Assembly: GCA_026417735.1 (NCBI GenBank)
Contig: JAOACR010000007.1
Coordinates: forward strand, 62,001 to 126,000
DNA length: 64,000 nucleotides
Reading direction: 5' to 3'
Source of the DNA: Kiritimatiellia bacterium
Lineage (GTDB): Bacteria > Verrucomicrobiota > Kiritimatiellia > PWTM01
Below, in pieces: positions 3,930 through 57,114 of the stretch; within the stretch, counting starts at the first letter, position 1; the number at the start of each line of letters is the position of its first letter. The translations under genes and the position numbers were made by a program. Under the pieces are notes generated by a model. The model was not told the DNA's origin. It worked only from the letters and a program-made list of their open reading frames with translations, and ran no database searches.

Positions 3930-4153
3930 GGCGCCTGTTCTCCGAGCACGTAGGACTTTGGGTGATCGGGATGCTGGTGGCGGTCGGTGCGCTGTGGCTA
4001 CACTCCGCGGTGACCGACGCGCTTCGGCGGCGGCGCCGCGTGGCATCGCTGTACCGCTGTGAACGCTGTGGTCGGGTCTATGAGGATGAGCGCAACGTGC
4101 CGCTTTCGGCCTGCCCCGGATGCGGCGCCTTGAACGAGGCGATTCAGCGATGA
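3923..4153 (+). CDS. small one-pass membrane protein with zinc ribbon
   Basis: 76 residues. ATG 3923 has AAGGAG at 3915-3920 and overlaps the end of the TonB-like gene by seven bases. A membrane helix spans about residues 9-30; the soluble tail holds two CxxC knuckles (YRCERCGRVY and SACPGCGALN) that would bind one zinc. Function is unknown. It is cotranscribed with the Exb/Ton-like genes and its stop overlaps the hisD start, so it belongs physically to the same operon. Gene callers may miss it because of its size. Confidence 0.75.
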   Translation: MVRRLFSEHVGLWVIGMLVAVGALWLHSAVTDALRRRRRVASLYRCERCGRVYEDERNVPLSACPGCGALNEAIQR

Positions 4154-19102: not shown

Positions 19103-20599
19103 TTATCGCACGCCGTCGCCGGGCGGCTGCGCAGTGGCGGGCGGGTGATCCGCTCGCAGCTCGCGTAGCCGCACAGCGCGCAGGTTCATGATGCCGGCAC
19201 GGGGCCGGCCGTCCGGGCGGGCCTCCAGCACGGTGAGGCCGGCCGGCAGCCGCAGCCGGCCCACCGTACGCTCGGTGAAGGTGCTCCAGCTGCCGGTCGA
19301 CGGCAGCGTGAACCGTAGGCTCTGGCGGCCGATGGCCAATAGCACGCGACTGTCCGGCGCCGCCCCGCCTCGCGCGTACTCCAGCACCACTTCGTACTCC
19401 GCTTCTTGCGGGACGCGAAACCGCCACACCAGGTAGTCGCGTTCGTCCGACCAGTATCCGATGTGGGCTCGGCCGCCGAGCTCTTCGATGCGGAACTTTG
19501 TGCCGTAACGGTCGGCACGCGCTGCCGGCAGCAGGATCTCGCGGCTCTCCGGCGCGGGCCGCTCCGCGCGCGCGGTCGTGACCGGTGGAGATGGTGGTGG
19601 AGTGGGGGGCGCGAGACGACGTGCGCGCGATGAGCGGATCGCCATGGGTACGGTGACCAGGCCCGTCGCGACTAGCGCCAGCGCGACCCGTCCGGCGGTC
19701 GTCCGCGGCCAGTGCAGCGGCGTGCGCCGCGCCGCCGTCGGTGGCGTTCGCGCTCCGGCGGCGAGATCGGCCGCATGCAGGTAGACCGCTGGGGCAACCA
19801 CGCCACCCACCTTGAGCCGGGCGACCTTGGGTGCTCGGATCGCTGCGTCATGCGCGGCGGGCAACGGTCGACCGCTTCGCAGAAAAGCGGGCAGCTCGAG
19901 TTCGGTCGCGCCGGCCCAAGCTGCCGCGCACGCCGCCACGTCAAACGCGCACCGGCGAAACTCGAGCCAACCGGCGGCGTCGTCGAACATCACATAGGCG
20001 GCCGCCGAACTGCCGTCTCGCGGATCGCCGACGGATCCGACGTTGATCAGATAGCGCAGGTGCGGATCTAGGGGCTGGTCATGGGCCGGGGCCGGCTCCA
20101 CGTGACCATCTCTGAGAATGAATACCGCTGGCACGTGGGTGTGGCCGATGAAGATCAGCCGGGCATCGGTGGCCCGGAAACAGACCTCCGCGTCGGCGGC
20201 GTCGTCGACGTAGCCGAACTCGGCTGGCGCCGCGGGTTCTGAGTGGACAAACAAGAGATCGTCGACCTCGACTGACAGCGGTAGGCCGCGGAAGAACTCC
20301 AGCGCCTGCTCGCCGAGCTGATGGCGCGTCCACCGTGCCGCGCGCCGTGCGCCGCGGCGGAAGCGCTCCATAGAGATGCGCCCGACCATCGCCGCCTCGT
20401 GGTTGCCCAGCACGCACAGCCGGCACCGCTCCTGCACGCTGGCGAGCACCTCGACCGGCCACGGTCCGTAGCCGACGACATCGCCGAGGCAGATTATTGC
20501 GTCGGCGCCGCGCGCGATCGCGTCGGTGAGCACTGCCTGCCAGGCCGGCAGGTTCGAGTGAATGTCCGAGACGACGGCCAGCCGCATAGCTCGCGTCAT
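19103..20599 (-). CDS. metallophosphoesterase - TM - beta-sandwich fusion
   Basis: 498 residues from ATG 20599 (ATG 20587 is a four-codon-shorter alternative). Residues 1-250 are a calcineurin-like phosphoesterase of the YfcE/DUF2851-like class with all metal motifs: VVSDIHSN, CLGDVVGYG, LGNHEAAM, FVHSEPA and IGHTHVP. A linker and one membrane helix (about 315-335) follow, then a proline-rich spacer and a C-terminal beta-sandwich (about 385-485: EYEVVLEYARGG, FTLPSTGSWSTF) resembling carbohydrate-binding or DUF5010-like modules. The catalytic half would be cytoplasmic and the sandwich outside. The fusion is unusual. Confidence 0.88.
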   Translation of the reverse strand: MTRAMRLAVVSDIHSNLPAWQAVLTDAIARGADAIICLGDVVGYGPWPVEVLASVQERCRLCVLGNHEAAMVGRISMERFRRGARRAARWTRHQLGEQALEFFRGLPLSVEVDDLLFVHSEPAAPAEFGYVDDAADAEVCFRATDARLIFIGHTHVPAVFILRDGHVEPAPAHDQPLDPHLRYLINVGSVGDPRDGSSAAAYVMFDDAAGWLEFRRCAFDVAACAAAWAGATELELPAFLRSGRPLPAAHDAAIRAPKVARLKVGGVVAPAVYLHAADLAAGARTPPTAARRTPLHWPRTTAGRVALALVATGLVTVPMAIRSSRARRLAPPTPPPSPPVTTARAERPAPESREILLPAARADRYGTKFRIEELGGRAHIGYWSDERDYLVWRFRVPQEAEYEVVLEYARGGAAPDSRVLLAIGRQSLRFTLPSTGSWSTFTERTVGRLRLPAGLTVLEARPDGRPRAGIMNLRAVRLRELRADHPPATAQPPGDGVR

Positions 20600-20662
20600 C
20601 TGCCCCACAAGACGGTAGAGCAGCCGGGCGGGCGCGCGCAAACGCGGACAGGGCCGACGGTG

Positions 20663-20707
20663 TCCATTCGTTGGACGCCGGCGGCTTGGGAGCGTCCAAG
20701 GATTGGA
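20663..20707. repeat. bipartite palindrome element, copy A
   Basis: Two 13-base palindromes of the form TCCAANNNTTGGA: TCCATTCGTTGGA at 20663-20675 (one mismatch) and TCCAAGGATTGGA at 20695-20707 (perfect arms). Their starts are 32 bases apart. The same two-part design with the same spacing occurs at 52701-52745. In addition TTGGACGC (20671-20678) can pair with GCGTCCAA (20692-20699). The element sits between divergent genes (metallophosphoesterase and rpe). Confidence 0.6.
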
Positions 20708-20798: not shown

Positions 20799-21476
20799 AT
20801 GCCGCTGCCCATTCAAATTTTGCCCTCGTTGCTTGCCGCCGATTTTGGCCGCATCGCCGAGGAGTGTCGCCGCGCGGAGACGGCGGGCGCCGACGCGTTG
20901 CACCTCGATGTGATGGATGGCCATTTTGTGCGGAACATCAGCTTTGGCCCGGAGATCGTGCGGGTCGCGCGGCGAAGCTGCGGCCTGCCGCTGCACGTGC
21001 ACCTGATGCTTGATCGGCCAGACCTGTATGTGCGGGTGTTCGTCGAGGCCGGTGCGGCGACGCTGTTGATCCACGTGGAGGCGCGATGTGACGTGGCCGG
21101 TGCGCTGAGAGAGATCCGCGCGCTTGGTGCGCGGCCGGGGCTGACGTTGAACCCGGAGACGCCGCTGGAGCTGGGAGATCCGTATCTCTCGGAAGGGCTG
21201 GTGGACGAGGTGCTGCTGATGAGCGTGCATCCGGGGTTCGGGGGCCAGTCCTTCCTCGAAGGGGTGCTGCCGAAGATTGCCGCGCTGCGCGCGGCGCGGC
21301 CGGCCCTGGCGATTTCGGTGGATGGTGGTATCGGTGAAGCGACCGGCGCCGCCTGCGCACGGGCGGGCGCGAACCTGCTCATCGCCGGCACGACGCTGTT
21401 TGGCACGCCGGACATGGCCGCCGCGATTGCACGGCTGCGCGCGGCGGCCTGCGCCGCGGCGGAGGGGGCCGGATGA
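20799..21476 (+). CDS. rpe: ribulose-phosphate 3-epimerase
   Basis: 225 residues, normal for this TIM-barrel enzyme of the pentose phosphate pathway, which interconverts ribulose-5-phosphate and xylulose-5-phosphate. Signatures: LPSLLAADFG, LHLDVMDGHFV with the metal-binding and catalytic Asp, HLMLDRPD, MSVHPGFGGQSF and SVDGGIG. ATG 20799 is preceded by GGAAAGG at 20786-20792. Its stop overlaps lepA by four bases. Ru5P is also the substrate of kdsD three genes on, giving the operon a loose metabolic link. Confidence 0.97.
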   Translation: MPLPIQILPSLLAADFGRIAEECRRAETAGADALHLDVMDGHFVRNISFGPEIVRVARRSCGLPLHVHLMLDRPDLYVRVFVEAGAATLLIHVEARCDVAGALREIRALGARPGLTLNPETPLELGDPYLSEGLVDEVLLMSVHPGFGGQSFLEGVLPKIAALRAARPALAISVDGGIGEATGAACARAGANLLIAGTTLFGTPDMAAAIARLRAAACAAAEGAG

Positions 21477-51305: not shown

Positions 51306-52688
51306 ATGAACCGCTTGTTCGCATGGATGTTGACCGCCGCCGCGGGCAGTCATTGGGTGAGTGCAGAAGTTCGGCCCTGGCTGGATTTCGAGGGTTCCGA
51401 TGCCGGCGCCGCGTGGAGGGCCGGGCGCGGCGCGTCGGTTCAGGTGGTGGAGGCGGTTGCGCCGGCGGGCGGCGGGGGGCCGGCGCCGCGGCCGGAGGGC
51501 CATGCGCTGCGCATCAGTGCGGGGGCCGGCGGCGGTGTGCTGCTGAGCCAGGTACCGGACGGCCTTGCGCAGGCCTGCGCGATTCGTCTGTGGCTGCGGC
51601 GCATCGGGGGCCAGGGGGCGACGCCCGCCGAAATCGAAGTGCAGTTCATCGAGCCGGACGGCCGCTCGCGGTTCTGGCGCAAAGTGACGTTGAGCAACTC
51701 CGAGTGGGAGGCGTTCGAATTGCCGCTGCGCTTCTTCCGCACGACCGGCGCACGGCTGCCCGAATGGCGGCAGGTGCGCCATTTCAGCCTGTACGCTCGG
51801 CAGGCGGTGACCGCGGAGCTCGACGCGGTGACGGTGGTGTGCGCGGAGGGCTGCGGACCGGACATCTCGTTGCAGGAGCTGCGCGAGATCGCCTTCCCCG
51901 GCGCCCCGACCGGTACGGTGCGGCTGGTGCGGGATGCGGAGTCCGCCGTGATGACCGACTGCGCGGAGCTCGACCTGGCGGCGATCCGTACGGTGATGGG
52001 GCAACTGACTCGGGAACTGCGGAGGCTGCTGCCGTTTCTGCCGGCGCCGGCGCGGCCGCCGGTGCTGCTGGTGTTCGCGGACCGCGCACAGTACCGGAAG
52101 TTTCCCGGCCAGCTCGCACAGCGCATGGGGGCGATTGCGGCGGAGCCGACCACGGATGGGTACACCGTCGCCGGCGTGGCGACATCGTTTTGGGACCCGC
52201 AGAAAGGGTCCCTGCGCCCCGTCTACTTCCACGAGTTCACGCACGCGTGGCTCGCGCAGGCGGGCGGACTGGCCTGTGAGGGGCATTGGTTACACGAGGC
52301 GGTCGCCAGCTACCTCCAGTTGAAGCTGTTCCCACAGCCGAACTTCGATGCGCTGGTGCGCAGCGCGTTGGCTTCGAACGCGGCCCGGCCGCTTCGGGAA
52401 CTGTGCTCGGCGCGTCCGGTGAACGTTCGCGACTACTGGCAGCTGGTGACCGTTTTCCGGATGCTGAAGGAGCGCCCGCCCTATGCGGAGCGGTTGCCGA
52501 GGCTGTTTGAGGCGGTCCGGGCGCACAGCAGTTTTGATCTGGGGCTGTACGTCGAGGAGGCGTTCGGTGTGGACTTGGACCGGCTGGAGGCCGACTGGCG
52601 CACGTTCTGCGAGGCGACCTGGCCGGCGGCCCCGGCACCCGCCCCCGTGGACAGCCAGGCGACGTCCACCGCGCCACCGAACGGCTGA
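51306..52688 (+). CDS. secreted gluzincin-type metallopeptidase-like protein
   Basis: 460 residues with a signal peptide (MNRLFAWMLTAAAGSHWVSA). Residues 25-190 form a carbohydrate-binding-like beta-sandwich (WLDFEGSDAGAAW, IRLWLRRIGG, FFRTTGARLPEWRQVRHFSLYA in part). The peptidase-like domain carries HEFTH (His309, His313) and a third ligand in WLHEAVASY (Glu331), the HExxH...E arrangement of gluzincins; DUF1570-type proteins of PVC bacteria look like this. It lies divergent from tonB. Peptide or glycoprotein substrate unknown. Confidence 0.82.
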   Translation: MNRLFAWMLTAAAGSHWVSAEVRPWLDFEGSDAGAAWRAGRGASVQVVEAVAPAGGGGPAPRPEGHALRISAGAGGGVLLSQVPDGLAQACAIRLWLRRIGGQGATPAEIEVQFIEPDGRSRFWRKVTLSNSEWEAFELPLRFFRTTGARLPEWRQVRHFSLYARQAVTAELDAVTVVCAEGCGPDISLQELREIAFPGAPTGTVRLVRDAESAVMTDCAELDLAAIRTVMGQLTRELRRLLPFLPAPARPPVLLVFADRAQYRKFPGQLAQRMGAIAAEPTTDGYTVAGVATSFWDPQKGSLRPVYFHEFTHAWLAQAGGLACEGHWLHEAVASYLQLKLFPQPNFDALVRSALASNAARPLRELCSARPVNVRDYWQLVTVFRMLKERPPYAERLPRLFEAVRAHSSFDLGLYVEEAFGVDLDRLEADWRTFCEATWPAAPAPAPVDSQATSTAPPNG

Positions 52689-52700
52689 GCGCAAGGCGCC

Positions 52701-52745
52701 TCCAACGCTGGGACGTCTCCGGCCGATGCGCTTCCAACGCTTGGA
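52701..52745. repeat. bipartite palindrome element, copy B
   Basis: TCCAACGCTGGGA at 52701-52713 (one mismatch) and TCCAACGCTTGGA at 52733-52745 (perfect arms), starts 32 bases apart exactly as in copy A at 20663-20707. The 19-base interiors share scattered positions, including a central CGGC. It fills the gap between two convergent genes. Confidence 0.6.
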
Positions 52746-52765: not shown

Positions 52766-54973
52766 TCAGGCCATGTTCGCGCGGCGGCGGATGGTCCACT
52801 CCAGCAGCGCCAGCGCCAACAGTGCGCCGAGCGCCAGCCAGTGGTTCCACAGCGACCGCCACACCGTGCGCACTTCCTCGCGTCCCTCGCCGCGCACCGC
52901 CGCGATAGCCCCGTCGAGGGCGTCCGGCCGCACCATGGCCCCGCCGGAGGACTCGGCGAGCCTGCGCAACAGTTCGAGGTTCGCGGGACGGCCCGTCGCC
53001 TCTGCGCCGACCGTTCGCACGGCGAAGTCGTACGGTGGAGAGTCCGCGCGCCGACCGTTGAGTTCGGCGGTTGCCACGGCCTGATAGGCTCCCGGCTGTT
53101 CCGGTGTGAAGATGAGCTCGAATCCCGGCATTGTCCGGCCGTCGGCGGTTTCGATCGGGCGGGAGGACATTCGGAATGGGAGCCAGCGGCCGTCGGGGGT
53201 GCGGATGCGGCAGGTGACCTCCGCCTTCGCGCCGTCGGGGCCACCGACCCGCGCGCAGAGGCGGATCGGCTCGCCGGCGTGGAGCATCGCGGTGCCCGCG
53301 AACAAATCCACCTCGAACGGTGCCAACTGTTCCTGCTCCGGGCTAAGCCAGTCGAGCAGCCGGTTCCAAAAGCGCCGGTAGAGATCCGTCTCCCCCGGTG
53401 CCAGGGACCACCGCCATAGCGATTCCGAGAGGATTGCCGCAACCTTCCCCTGGCCGTAGCGGTGCACGACGATGAGGGGATGTGGACCGGCGGAAGTCCG
53501 CGCCTCCGCCAGCACCTCGGCGGCGGGCTTCGCGATCGCGCCCGGAAACACGCTGAGCACCGGCGGCAACCCTCCCTCAAACTGGTCCGTGCCGCCGAAC
53601 ACCGGGTGGGCGCGGCCCTCGTCGGTGATCGCGACCTCGAAGGAGCCTTCCAGCGGTGGCGCCACACCGCGGCGGTCGAACGGCAGCAGCGCGCGCAGCG
53701 GGCCGGATTCGAAGCCGTCCCGTCCCCACGCCTTCGGGCCGCCCAGCAGCACCAGTCGGCCGCCACGTTCCACGAAGTCCACGAGGTGGCGAGCGCGCGC
53801 CTCACCGAGCGCCGGCATGTCCAGATCGCCGACCACCACGGTTTTGAAGCCGGCCAGCTGCTCGGGCGTGAGATCCAGCGTCATGCCGCCGCGGCCGCCG
53901 TAGGTGAGAAAACGGCCGTCCGGCCCGCGCACGAACGCCAGCGGCGTCACGGGGCTGCCCGCGCGTAGTGCGCGAATCAGGTACTTCGACTCCCAGCGCG
54001 GCACGTCCTCGACGTACAGCAGGCGGTTCTGCGCGTCGACCACCTGCACGGTGACCGCGGCGGTGTTGTCGTTCGTCCGCGTCTCTCCCTCCAGCGGCGG
54101 CACTTCGACGCGGTAGCGAACGATTCCGACCGCGGGGTTGTCGAGGTGGAAGACGACGTCGCGCGAGCCGCCGCCGGGGCCCAGCTGGGTGGGGATCTCC
54201 TGCAGGAGCTGATCGTTGCGGTACAGCCGCACTGCGATCGCGCGATCGGGTGGCGCTTCGCCGGAGATGGTCGCGGTGAGCCGGCTGTTCCAGCCCGCGA
54301 CCACGCGCAACGGCGTGTCCAGCGCGTCCACTCGCAGGTCGGGGGGGCGGGTGGGCACGACGGCCGGCGTTTCGATCTCGAGAGTGTAGATTGGGAACGG
54401 CCAGGGCCCGGAGGCCCAGTCGTCGCGCGGTTCGCGGGTGTCGAGGCCATCGCTGAGCACCAACACGCCAGCGACGGGCTGGCCCCGGTGCAGCGCGCCG
54501 ATGCGTGCGAGCGCGTCGCGCAGGCGGGTGGCGGTGCCGTCGGGGTGGAGACGCGCGGCGTCCGCGGGGTCAAGCCGGCCGCGAAGGTCCTCCGCAAAGG
54601 GATGAACGTCCACCGACCAGCGTCGCGCGGCCTCGCGAACCCAGCGGCCGTCGAGCGCGGTGCGTGCGATGTGCCAGCGCGTGGTGCCCTCGGCGGTCGC
54701 CACGTTGGTCATGCTCGCCGACACGTCGAGCAGCACGATCCAGCGCGGACGTACTTCTTCCCGCAGCGTTTCGCGCCGCGCCGGCATCAGCAGACACCAG
54801 CCCAGCACGCCGAGCCAGGCCAGTCGTACCGCCAGCAGCGCGATGCCGATTCGGTCGAGCGAAAGCATCCGCACCGCCGAGATCACCGCGACGGTGGCGA
54901 TCACCGCCAGCGCGCTGGCCCACACCGCGGTGGGCACCGCGTGCTCCAGCACAATGTCCGGCCAGCCGCTCAT
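52766..54973 (-). CDS. VWA/glutamine-amidotransferase-like membrane protein
   Basis: 735 residues from ATG 54973 (ATGA overlap with the BatA-like gene). Two N-terminal helices (about 11-60) precede a VWA domain with the MIDAS motif LLDVSASMT and VLVLSDGLDT; a beta-sandwich (LRVVAGWNSRLTATISG) and an amidotransferase-like domain (VVVGDLDMPALGEARARHLVDFVERGGRLVLLGG in part) follow. A final helix lies near the C-terminus (ALGALLALALLEW). Typical of PVC 'DUF1355/VWA' envelope proteins that partner BatA and MoxR; role unknown. Confidence 0.87.
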   Translation of the reverse strand: MSGWPDIVLEHAVPTAVWASALAVIATVAVISAVRMLSLDRIGIALLAVRLAWLGVLGWCLLMPARRETLREEVRPRWIVLLDVSASMTNVATAEGTTRWHIARTALDGRWVREAARRWSVDVHPFAEDLRGRLDPADAARLHPDGTATRLRDALARIGALHRGQPVAGVLVLSDGLDTREPRDDWASGPWPFPIYTLEIETPAVVPTRPPDLRVDALDTPLRVVAGWNSRLTATISGEAPPDRAIAVRLYRNDQLLQEIPTQLGPGGGSRDVVFHLDNPAVGIVRYRVEVPPLEGETRTNDNTAAVTVQVVDAQNRLLYVEDVPRWESKYLIRALRAGSPVTPLAFVRGPDGRFLTYGGRGGMTLDLTPEQLAGFKTVVVGDLDMPALGEARARHLVDFVERGGRLVLLGGPKAWGRDGFESGPLRALLPFDRRGVAPPLEGSFEVAITDEGRAHPVFGGTDQFEGGLPPVLSVFPGAIAKPAAEVLAEARTSAGPHPLIVVHRYGQGKVAAILSESLWRWSLAPGETDLYRRFWNRLLDWLSPEQEQLAPFEVDLFAGTAMLHAGEPIRLCARVGGPDGAKAEVTCRIRTPDGRWLPFRMSSRPIETADGRTMPGFELIFTPEQPGAYQAVATAELNGRRADSPPYDFAVRTVGAEATGRPANLELLRRLAESSGGAMVRPDALDGAIAAVRGEGREEVRTVWRSLWNHWLALGALLALALLEWTIRRRANMA

Positions 54974-57114
54974 CCGGGCGCCGCGCTCCGCACACGCCCC
55001 GAGGGCTCGACGATCCACCTCATTCGCCGCGCCGCGGTGCGGCGGCTCACCCGATTGGCGAGCAGAAACTCGGCGGTGCCAACCCCGAGTGCCAGCCACA
55101 GCACCAGCTCGCCCAGCGGCCGGCCTACCCGCACCTCCTCGATCCGGCGCGCCAGTTCCTCCCGCCCGCGCGCCACCTGCGCCCGGCGCACGCCGAGGCG
55201 GTCGGGGATCGTCGCGGGGTCCACCGGCGCCAGATCGGACTCGACCGGCGGCAGATTCACCGCGAGTACGGCGCGCCGCGCACCCTCCATCTCCGTCCAG
55301 TAGATGCCGGGCCAGGGCGGCTCCTCGATGAGCGGAACGTCGCGGCCGCCGCGGCGGACCGCCCGCACCTTGACCGTGACGCCGTCCGGCCCCGACAGCC
55401 GCTCCGGCACCGTCCCGCCGAGGGTGGGCAGCGGCAGCTCCGCCGCAGAGACCGCCCAAAGCGGCTCACGGACGCGCTGCGCGCCGTGTCGAGCGATTTC
55501 ATGCAGCAGCGGCAGAAAGATGGGCGTCAGCGGCAGGTTGCTCCAGTCGCGATCGGCGCCAACGGTAAACAGCAGCGCGCGGCCGGCATCCAGCGGGCGG
55601 GCCAGCAGAAAGGGCGCGTCGCCCTCCATCGCGATCAGGGTCTCCGCGTCGGGCGCGAGCGGGCCGGGCACCAGCCACCGACGCAACGCGAGGGTCGGCA
55701 CTGCGCCGGCGGGCAGGCGCAGTTCCTCAAAGAGCGAATCCGATGGCGCCCGCAACCGCAGCGTGCGCCGCCCCTGTCCGGGGCGGATGTCCTCGATGGC
55801 GCGGGGCTGCGCCGGCAGCCAGCTGAGGTTTGCGTAGTCGGCGGGGGCGGCGCGATCGCCGGGAAACACCGCGACGACCCCCCCCGCGCGCAGATATCGC
55901 TCCAGATCCACCAGCGCCGGGCCGGGCAACGGCACCGCGTTGACGAGCAGCACGCACAGCGCGCGATCCAAGGCGGCGCTGTCCCACGCCGCCGGCCGCA
56001 CCAGGCGCACATCCATTCCCGACTCGCGGCCACCCGGCTGCAGCGCGCGGCGCACAAAGAGCAGATCGCTCTCCTCTCCGACGCAGACAACCGGTACACG
56101 GTCGCGGACGTGGAGCAGCAGATGAAACGCGTCGTCCGCGGAGAAACCGTCCGGCGGCGTGCGAACAACCAGCGCGTGACGGCCCGGTTCGAGCGGCGGC
56201 AACGCAAAGACTGTTTCCGCCGCGGGAGCGCCAGCGGGCAGAATTTGCCGGGCGAGTTCGCGGCCGTTAACCTCGAGCGTCACCGGCGTCGCGTCCTCCG
56301 CGCGCGAACGCGCCACGCGCACCGACAACCGCCCGGCCCGCCCTTCCAGCAGCAGGCCGGGTTGCAGCTGCGCATGGACCGGTGCCGCGTTGTGGGGTGA
56401 GGCGGCGCCGACCAGCGCGACGATCAGCGTGCCGCGCTGCTCGATCGGCGCCGGGTCCCATGCGCCGCCCGTGACGTTCGTTGTGCCGGCGAACTCCTCC
56501 CATGCGCGCGCCTGGCCATCCGTGACGATGTAGTACTCCCGCTCCCGCGGCCCGGACTCCGCCAACGCCTGCACCGCGGCGCGAAGCGCGGGCATCAGCG
56601 AGGAGCCGGTCGGGCGCGGCGACTGGCGCCGCACGAGATCCATCACGAAGGCGAGGTCCGCGGTCGGGCGCGCGACCAGCGGCTCGGCTCGTTCCGCCGC
56701 GAGAATCACCGCGGCTCGGTCACCGCTGGCCAGCCCCCGCAGGATCTCCAGCACCGCCTCGCGCCCGTCCGTCCAGACGCTGCGGCCCCCGCTCTCGTAG
56801 GTCATGCTCGCCGAAACGTCCCAGACGATTGCGACGTCGCGCCGCGCGGCGCCGAGCGCCGCGAAGCGGCCGCTGCGGACCACCGGCAGCGCGAAACCGA
56901 GCGCGAGCAGCGCGATCAGCAGCGTGCGCAGCAGCCAGAGCAGGAAGTTCTCCATTCGGATCCGCCGCGACGAGCGATGCTGGGCGAGCCGAAGGAATCG
57001 GACCGTCGGGAACCGGATGCGCACCGATCGCCGCCGCGCCAATAGATGCAGAATCAGCGGGATCGCCGCCGCGAGGCCGGCCCACAGAAACGTCGGCTGA
57101 AGAAACGACCACAT
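54970..57114 (-). CDS. BatA-like VWA membrane protein
   Basis: 714 residues from ATG 57114. The opening FLQPTFLWAGLAAAIPLILHLLARRR is the BatA (aerotolerance-type) N-terminal domain, followed by a helix and a VWA domain with WDVSASMTYESG and YYIVTDGQA. A large periplasmic beta and amidotransferase-like region (CVLLVNAVPLPG, LERYLRAGGVVAVFPGD) and a C-terminal helix complete it. Such proteins work with MoxR ATPases in envelope maintenance; a MoxR/DUF58 set is at 9133-11426 but none is adjacent. Confidence 0.88.
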   Translation of the reverse strand: MWSFLQPTFLWAGLAAAIPLILHLLARRRSVRIRFPTVRFLRLAQHRSSRRIRMENFLLWLLRTLLIALLALGFALPVVRSGRFAALGAARRDVAIVWDVSASMTYESGGRSVWTDGREAVLEILRGLASGDRAAVILAAERAEPLVARPTADLAFVMDLVRRQSPRPTGSSLMPALRAAVQALAESGPREREYYIVTDGQARAWEEFAGTTNVTGGAWDPAPIEQRGTLIVALVGAASPHNAAPVHAQLQPGLLLEGRAGRLSVRVARSRAEDATPVTLEVNGRELARQILPAGAPAAETVFALPPLEPGRHALVVRTPPDGFSADDAFHLLLHVRDRVPVVCVGEESDLLFVRRALQPGGRESGMDVRLVRPAAWDSAALDRALCVLLVNAVPLPGPALVDLERYLRAGGVVAVFPGDRAAPADYANLSWLPAQPRAIEDIRPGQGRRTLRLRAPSDSLFEELRLPAGAVPTLALRRWLVPGPLAPDAETLIAMEGDAPFLLARPLDAGRALLFTVGADRDWSNLPLTPIFLPLLHEIARHGAQRVREPLWAVSAAELPLPTLGGTVPERLSGPDGVTVKVRAVRRGGRDVPLIEEPPWPGIYWTEMEGARRAVLAVNLPPVESDLAPVDPATIPDRLGVRRAQVARGREELARRIEEVRVGRPLGELVLWLALGVGTAEFLLANRVSRRTAARRMRWIVEPSGRVRSAAPG

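Follow-up and report, generated by a model that had tools for sequence, protein, structure and literature searches.

Paired palindromes three helical turns apart in Kiritimatiellia chromosomes: candidate sites of a putative dimeric DNA-binding protein

Introduction

What is the role of a short, two-part palindrome that lies between the converging 3' ends of two genes, when the same arrangement is found again between two divergent gene starts? This question was raised by the locus at 52701-52745 of the window, which is the whole stretch of DNA that was analysed (64,000 nucleotides; C7:62001-126000) and belongs to a genome of 3.09 Mb in 24 contigs (G000, hereafter the source genome). The first-pass annotation of the window regarded a purely promoter-linked operator as unlikely, listed a dispersed element, a nucleoid-protein site and an RNA-level terminator or stabiliser as the better candidates, and suggested that the sequence between the two palindromes is also constrained. 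Few bacteria are, to our knowledge, known to have sequence-defined sites with a chromosome-wide architectural role, the examples being matS, SlmA, Noc and parS.

Results

Direct reading of positions 52701-52745 (copy B) gives TCCAACGCTGGGA-N19-TCCAACGCTTGGA, and the two-part layout with an offset of 32 bp described in the first-pass annotation is therefore true of copy B as well as of copy A (20663-20707), whose offset is identical. The features of the two loci are as follows; the four ORFs are given as context only.

52701-52713, no strand: copy B, left 13-bp palindrome TCCAACGCTGGGA, one mismatch to TCCAA-N3-TTGGA
52714-52732, no strand: copy B, spacer of 19 bp, conserved in length and not in sequence
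52733-52745, no strand: copy B, right 13-bp palindrome TCCAACGCTTGGA, perfect
20663-20675, no strand: copy A, left palindrome TCCATTCGTTGGA, one mismatch
20676-20694, no strand: copy A, spacer of 19 bp
20695-20707, no strand: copy A, right palindrome TCCAAGGATTGGA, perfect
51306-52688, plus strand: ORF upstream of copy B, 460 aa, no Pfam match
52766-55018, minus strand: ORF convergent on copy B, VWA/GATase1-like
19103-20641, minus strand: metallophosphoesterase ORF left of copy A
20799-21476, plus strand: ribulose-phosphate 3-epimerase ORF right of copy A

The contexts assigned to the two copies were likewise borne out: convergent 3' ends flank copy B, which is 12 bp past the stop of the plus-strand ORF and 20 bp before the end of the minus-strand ORF (52766), and copy A lies between two divergent starts, 21 bp from the left one (20641) and 91 bp from the right one (20799). 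According to 100 dinucleotide shuffles, the chance expectation for the paired pattern is 0.00.

The source genome carries 28 perfect pairs and approximately 70 pairs with at most two mismatches, and the reversed-pattern control gave none. Exact single 13-mers number 102 (reversed control, 2), and nearly all of those listed are members of pairs. On four contigs (1.34 Mb in total), 36 pairs with up to three mismatches were found at the offset of 32, compared with a mean of 0.12 at other offsets, and 32 was the only offset enriched there. When 84,980 species were scanned, each represented by one genome, at least 120 stretches were found; the records that hold them bear the names Kiritimatiellae, Lentisphaerae, Verrucomicrobia or uncultured bacterium. 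Within the phylum, exact pairs occur in 33 of the 388 genomes, all 33 belonging to the class of the source genome, and the control was zero throughout. This class, alone within the phylum in holding the motif, is apparently Kiritimatiellia, as we infer from the coincidence of site positions in two same-class genomes (G012 and G062) with those in named records (G390 and G391). The family of helix-phased double palindromes to which copy B genuinely belongs is spread over the whole genome and restricted to one class.

The density of this family differs greatly within the class. Exact pairs per genome range from 1 to 1,310, the motif-rich genomes differ more than 40-fold in density, and several members of the class have none, or single palindromes only; a dispensable or lineage-specific role is therefore suggested. 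There are also differences in the grammar of the sites. In a search with the single 15-mer, some lineages were found to use the palindrome singly (1,132 singles and 5 pairs in G226, 567 and 0 in G079, and 459 and 0 in G087), other lineages pair the palindrome at 32 bp, and one genome (G384) carries arrays; the number of palindromes per genome reaches 3,000. A phage origin was also considered and was rejected because the pair is present in only 2 viral contigs of IMG/VR.

The consensus derived from 27 sites of the source genome and 160 exact sites in relatives is TCCAA-NSN-TTGGA, the centre base being C or G almost without exception. In lower-GC relatives it lengthens to TTCCAA-NSN-TTGGAA, with A/T tracts immediately outside. 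The literature searched held no match to these consensus strings. As the first-pass annotation had noted, the interiors of copies A and B both start with CG and share CGGC at interior positions 7-10, and this much is true of the two copies; it does not hold for the other copies, and the proposal that the interior is constrained in general is not upheld by their alignment. The 19 bases are mostly free, and the central positions in the source genome carry little information beyond base composition. The sole clear bias there concerns the base that stands two positions outside each GGA, which is never T, and because this bias is equally strong on the outer side of the palindromes as on the interior side, the CG and CGGC of copies A and B do not point to a general constraint. 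The annotation had named the lack of interior conservation as one half of what would count against its reading; such a lack is what we found, and the conclusion drawn below is independent of the interior. Some relatives do have partly conserved interiors, with AAAA..TTTT edges or, in G388, AAGTC..GACTT.

The distance between palindromes follows the helical repeat of DNA. In relatives, the offsets cluster at 31-33, 63-64 and 94-95 bp, the loci having been chosen for the offset of 32 and the other offsets being unselected. The arrays of G384, of up to seven units, alternate between 31 and 32 bp, with a mean of 31.42 bp, or 3 x 10.47. Both the clusters and this mean are what would be predicted if successive dimers bound the same face of B-DNA, and an RNA element would need no such phase. 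Several of these arrays (L339-L353, up to seven palindromes) lie at contig ends, and their borders are conserved as AAAAC/GTTTT; long arrays may break the assembly of this genome. The neighbours of the long arrays are sugar-metabolism genes, glycosyltransferases and genes for other enzymes, and no autoregulated binder was found among them.

Because genes were called with a simple codon-model caller written for this analysis, the coding labels are approximate: the 36 sites on the four contigs of the source genome comprise 8 convergent, 5 divergent, 11 tandem and 12 coding ones. Of the 36 sites, 24 are intergenic, as against an intergenic share of roughly 12.5% in the DNA. Sites in relatives comprise 21 convergent, 23 divergent, 63 tandem and 34 coding ones, with 19 at locus edges. 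No family or functional class is shared among the flanking genes (58 and 72 proteins), and in a set of 526 flanking proteins only two neighbours recur, a lysA-like and a dinB-like one (three lineages; named by eye). One pair (L182; G000:C7:202129) was called within a protein-coding gene and is kept in a congener. The occurrence of sites in all gene orientations and in coding DNA, both in the source genome and in relatives, agrees with the earlier view that a promoter-linked operator is unlikely.

Along the chromosome, the sites are over-dispersed. The smallest gap in the source genome is 11.8 kb and the median is 32 kb (50 gaps). Short gaps, taken as those under one quarter of the mean, are absent where 8.8 are expected in the source genome and 2.8 in its congener G007, and are depleted in G388 (7 observed, 16.1 expected) and G391 (5 and 14.6); P ranges from <0.0001 to 0.03 across these four genomes, the two congeners among which are not independent. 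The null model was uniform placement conditioned on the outermost sites, with intergenic and coding DNA treated alike, which matters for G391, the densest genome.

In the source genome, the GC skew peaks at C3:148,595 and a dif-like site lies at 147,936; the terminus so marked falls within a gap of 154 kb between pairs with at most two mismatches, the largest gap sampled, apart from a weak pair with three mismatches at 198,479. The dif-like site of G388 (C1, 603 kb) lies in an unremarkable gap of 99 kb. On exclusion from the terminus, as with SlmA or Noc, the two genomes differ, the terminal gap of the source genome not being repeated in G388. Restriction to the terminus, as with matS, was rejected because each of the four large contigs carries sites, both within the terminus region and beyond it. 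The two dif-like sites (G000:C3:147936 and G388:C1:603129, both minus strand) have a common core, CGTCGCATAATA, followed by TTATGTC, and that of the source genome is some 660 bp away from the point where the cumulative GC skew is highest.

Another check was the comparison of 30 site loci of two congeners (G007 and G050) with the sequence of the source genome, where the alignment crosses the relative's site in six. In five of these six (L182, L183, L190, L195 and L202), both palindromes are kept in the source genome with at most one core substitution, and N3, spacer and flanks have diverged; at L183, one-base gaps in the spacer cancel, and the offset is still 32. At L205 the congener's site is missing from the aligned sequence of the source genome, and at L180 the flanks align with a site between them in both genomes. 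This retention at orthologous places argues that selection often holds the sites where they are and that they are not recent insertions. Six of the G388 copies (L267-L270, L284 and L285), however, lie within a longer dispersed repeat with homologous flanks, the left flanks being similar in 6/6 and the right in 5/6, with identical 45-mers in four; in that lineage, the site travels with a repeat family.

Discussion

The reading that we favour, with a probability of roughly 0.6, is that copy B belongs to a set of some 70 chromosomal sites of a putative sequence-specific, dimeric DNA-binding protein of Kiritimatiellia with a role at the chromosome level. A job at this level appears likely because the sites are dispersed, at approximately one per 30-40 kb in the source genome, and are independent of promoters and gene function. 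One dimer would occupy each palindrome of 13-15 bp, and a pair of palindromes would place two dimers on one face of the helix at a distance of exactly three turns; the two would probably touch, perhaps binding cooperatively and bending or wrapping the intervening DNA. The protein would be an architectural one, comparable to MatP at matS or to SlmA and Noc at their sites, that anchors, loops, compacts or marks the nucleoid. Weighing against this reading are the wide differences in density within the class, the repeat-borne copies of G388, the roughly one third of sites in the source genome that were called coding, and the site missing at L205. Among the options listed in the first-pass annotation, a nucleoid-type protein site seems to fit best, binding itself being a prediction from sequence.

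The other two options that the annotation had listed, and accumulation through DNA uptake, account for less of the data. A pair of RNA hairpins serving as a transcription terminator or an mRNA 3'-end stabiliser would suit the position of copy B between convergent 3' ends, two f6 sites (L296 and L298 of G246) are embedded in what look like terminator hairpins followed by T tails, and the stems of single palindromes extend somewhat further than the null in f6 (1.13 versus 0.59) and CAIWHP (1.58 versus 0.94). However, outward stem extension is no greater than the swap null, obtained by pairing the flanks of different copies, in the sets from the source genome, CAIVKH, SCQF and G388; T-runs accompany 0-4% of palindromes in most sets, the exceptions being f6 (16%) and G388 (40% of ten palindromes). 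Nothing resembling a terminator was found at copy B, whose fold is unexceptional (z = -0.95), and Rfam gave no match in the 64-kb window at the gathering threshold. Since sites are also divergent or within genes, and strict helical phasing is superfluous for RNA, we regard this explanation as highly improbable. At L296 and L298 (about position 4001), the palindrome tops an apparent intrinsic terminator hairpin and a T-run follows, which is apparently a local co-option. A mobile repeat of the REP/BIME kind, moved by a RAYT-type Y1 transposase, would explain the many intergenic copies and the longer repeat with homologous flanks that holds some of those in G388. REP/BIME elements are intergenic palindromes and are often paired (PMC3733652), and in both respects the present sites are similar; they differ in having neither a conserved tagged unit nor a transposase in the source genome. 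Copies in the source genome have only the two palindromes in common, spacers and flanks being unrelated, Y1_Tnp is absent from five motif-rich genomes (the source genome, both congeners, G148 and G384), and orthologous places keep their sites, so that a dispersed mobile element is, for the source genome, just as improbable as the RNA element. Slightly less remote, though still very unlikely, is a DNA uptake sequence accumulated through natural transformation, with which high copy number, intergenic bias, patchy loss between congeners and even spacing would agree. Known uptake sequences are also evenly spaced. Nevertheless, the genus of the source genome has only tens of copies, and the motif consists of symmetric palindromes in helix-phased pairs and arrays, which known uptake words do not resemble.

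If a protein binds the sites, a conventional transcription factor that controls a large regulon has to be weighed, because palindromes of 13-15 bp paired three turns apart are typical operator architecture, as in NrdR boxes. Against this, convergent and divergent intergenic sites are equally frequent in relatives (21 versus 23), sites lie within genes, the neighbours form no functional class, the spacing is even, and a genome may hold up to 3,000 palindromes; we consider such an operator rather unlikely. NrdR boxes are of 16 bp each with a spacer of 15-16 bp, i.e., about 31-32 bp centre to centre, and NrdR is described as a repressor of RNR operons (PMC12051234). The likeness is the palindrome pair 31-32 bp apart; the difference is that tens to hundreds of pairs occur here, unlinked to gene function. 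NrdR was rejected as the binder, because it is universal in the genomes searched, motif-free ones included, and single-copy in nearly all; no link to ribonucleotide reductase was seen either, the flanking genes being diverse and without a recurrent family.

A somewhat better, though still doubtful, candidate is an Lrp/AsnC (feast/famine) regulator acting as a global nucleoid-wrapping factor, an octamer or filament that would advance three turns per dimer. For Lrp-type proteins, a 13-bp palindrome (FL11), clustered sites, DNA wrapping and centre-to-centre spacings of two or three turns have been described (PMC2995911), and the geometry of the motif fits these sites. An ortholog of approximately 160 aa was found in all 35 motif-positive genomes searched, and in genomes with few copies some of the sites are close to amino-acid genes (argJ, argG/lysA, dapA and metH; named by eye from translations). 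However, the ortholog is also present in 39 of 45 genomes without an exact pair, including G265 and G240, congeners of motif-rich genomes, so that its class-wide distribution (74 of 80 genomes, motif-free ones included) does not follow the motif, by which the present sites differ from Lrp/AsnC operators. Furthermore, the recognition helix does not tell the two groups apart, G254 and G363 have different helices although each abounds in single palindromes, and paired sites lie near just 1 of 30 lrp loci. A second match to PF01037 was seen in G000, G007, G050, G062, G372, G388, G389 and others, with a stand-alone RAM domain at L335; it is commoner in motif-rich genomes in a count that ignores phylogeny, and that of the source genome (G000:C9:454155-454367) contains one in-frame TAG.

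Comparison with known chromosome-wide sites is instructive for the favoured reading, the architectural protein. matS is an odd palindrome of 13 bp (5-3-5) that is confined to Ter in tens of copies, and its effects extend over tens of kb and are not tied to gene regulation (PMC3116907). The present motif resembles it in length, odd symmetry, copy number and lack of a tie to gene regulation, and differs in that its sequence is not GTGACRNYGTCAC, it is doubled at 32 bp, and it occurs on all large contigs. MatP (PF06303) was rejected as the binder, since it was found in none of the 16 genomes searched, the E. coli control being positive. SlmA has about 50 dispersed palindromic sites per chromosome, which avoid Ter and are mainly coding (PMC3116907); dispersed palindromic sites are thus shared with SlmA and Noc, but those described here are mostly intergenic and paired. 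No binding protein was found among the candidates Lrp, NrdR and MatP. By analogy, the sites are best read as having an Lrp-like or NrdR-like geometry and, possibly, a function like that of matS or SlmA.

More tentatively, and at somewhat less than even odds, we suggest that the class possesses a chromosome organisation system of its own, in which helix-phased double palindromes, evenly placed at 5-40 kb according to species, would bind a novel protein and serve as nucleoprotein anchors and their grammar would evolve among single, paired and arrayed forms. If this is true, the 45-mer would be a ready-made probe of nucleoid organisation and segregation in a largely uncultured class of the PVC group, and the differences between congeners would constitute a natural experiment in the growth, grammar change and loss of a site system.
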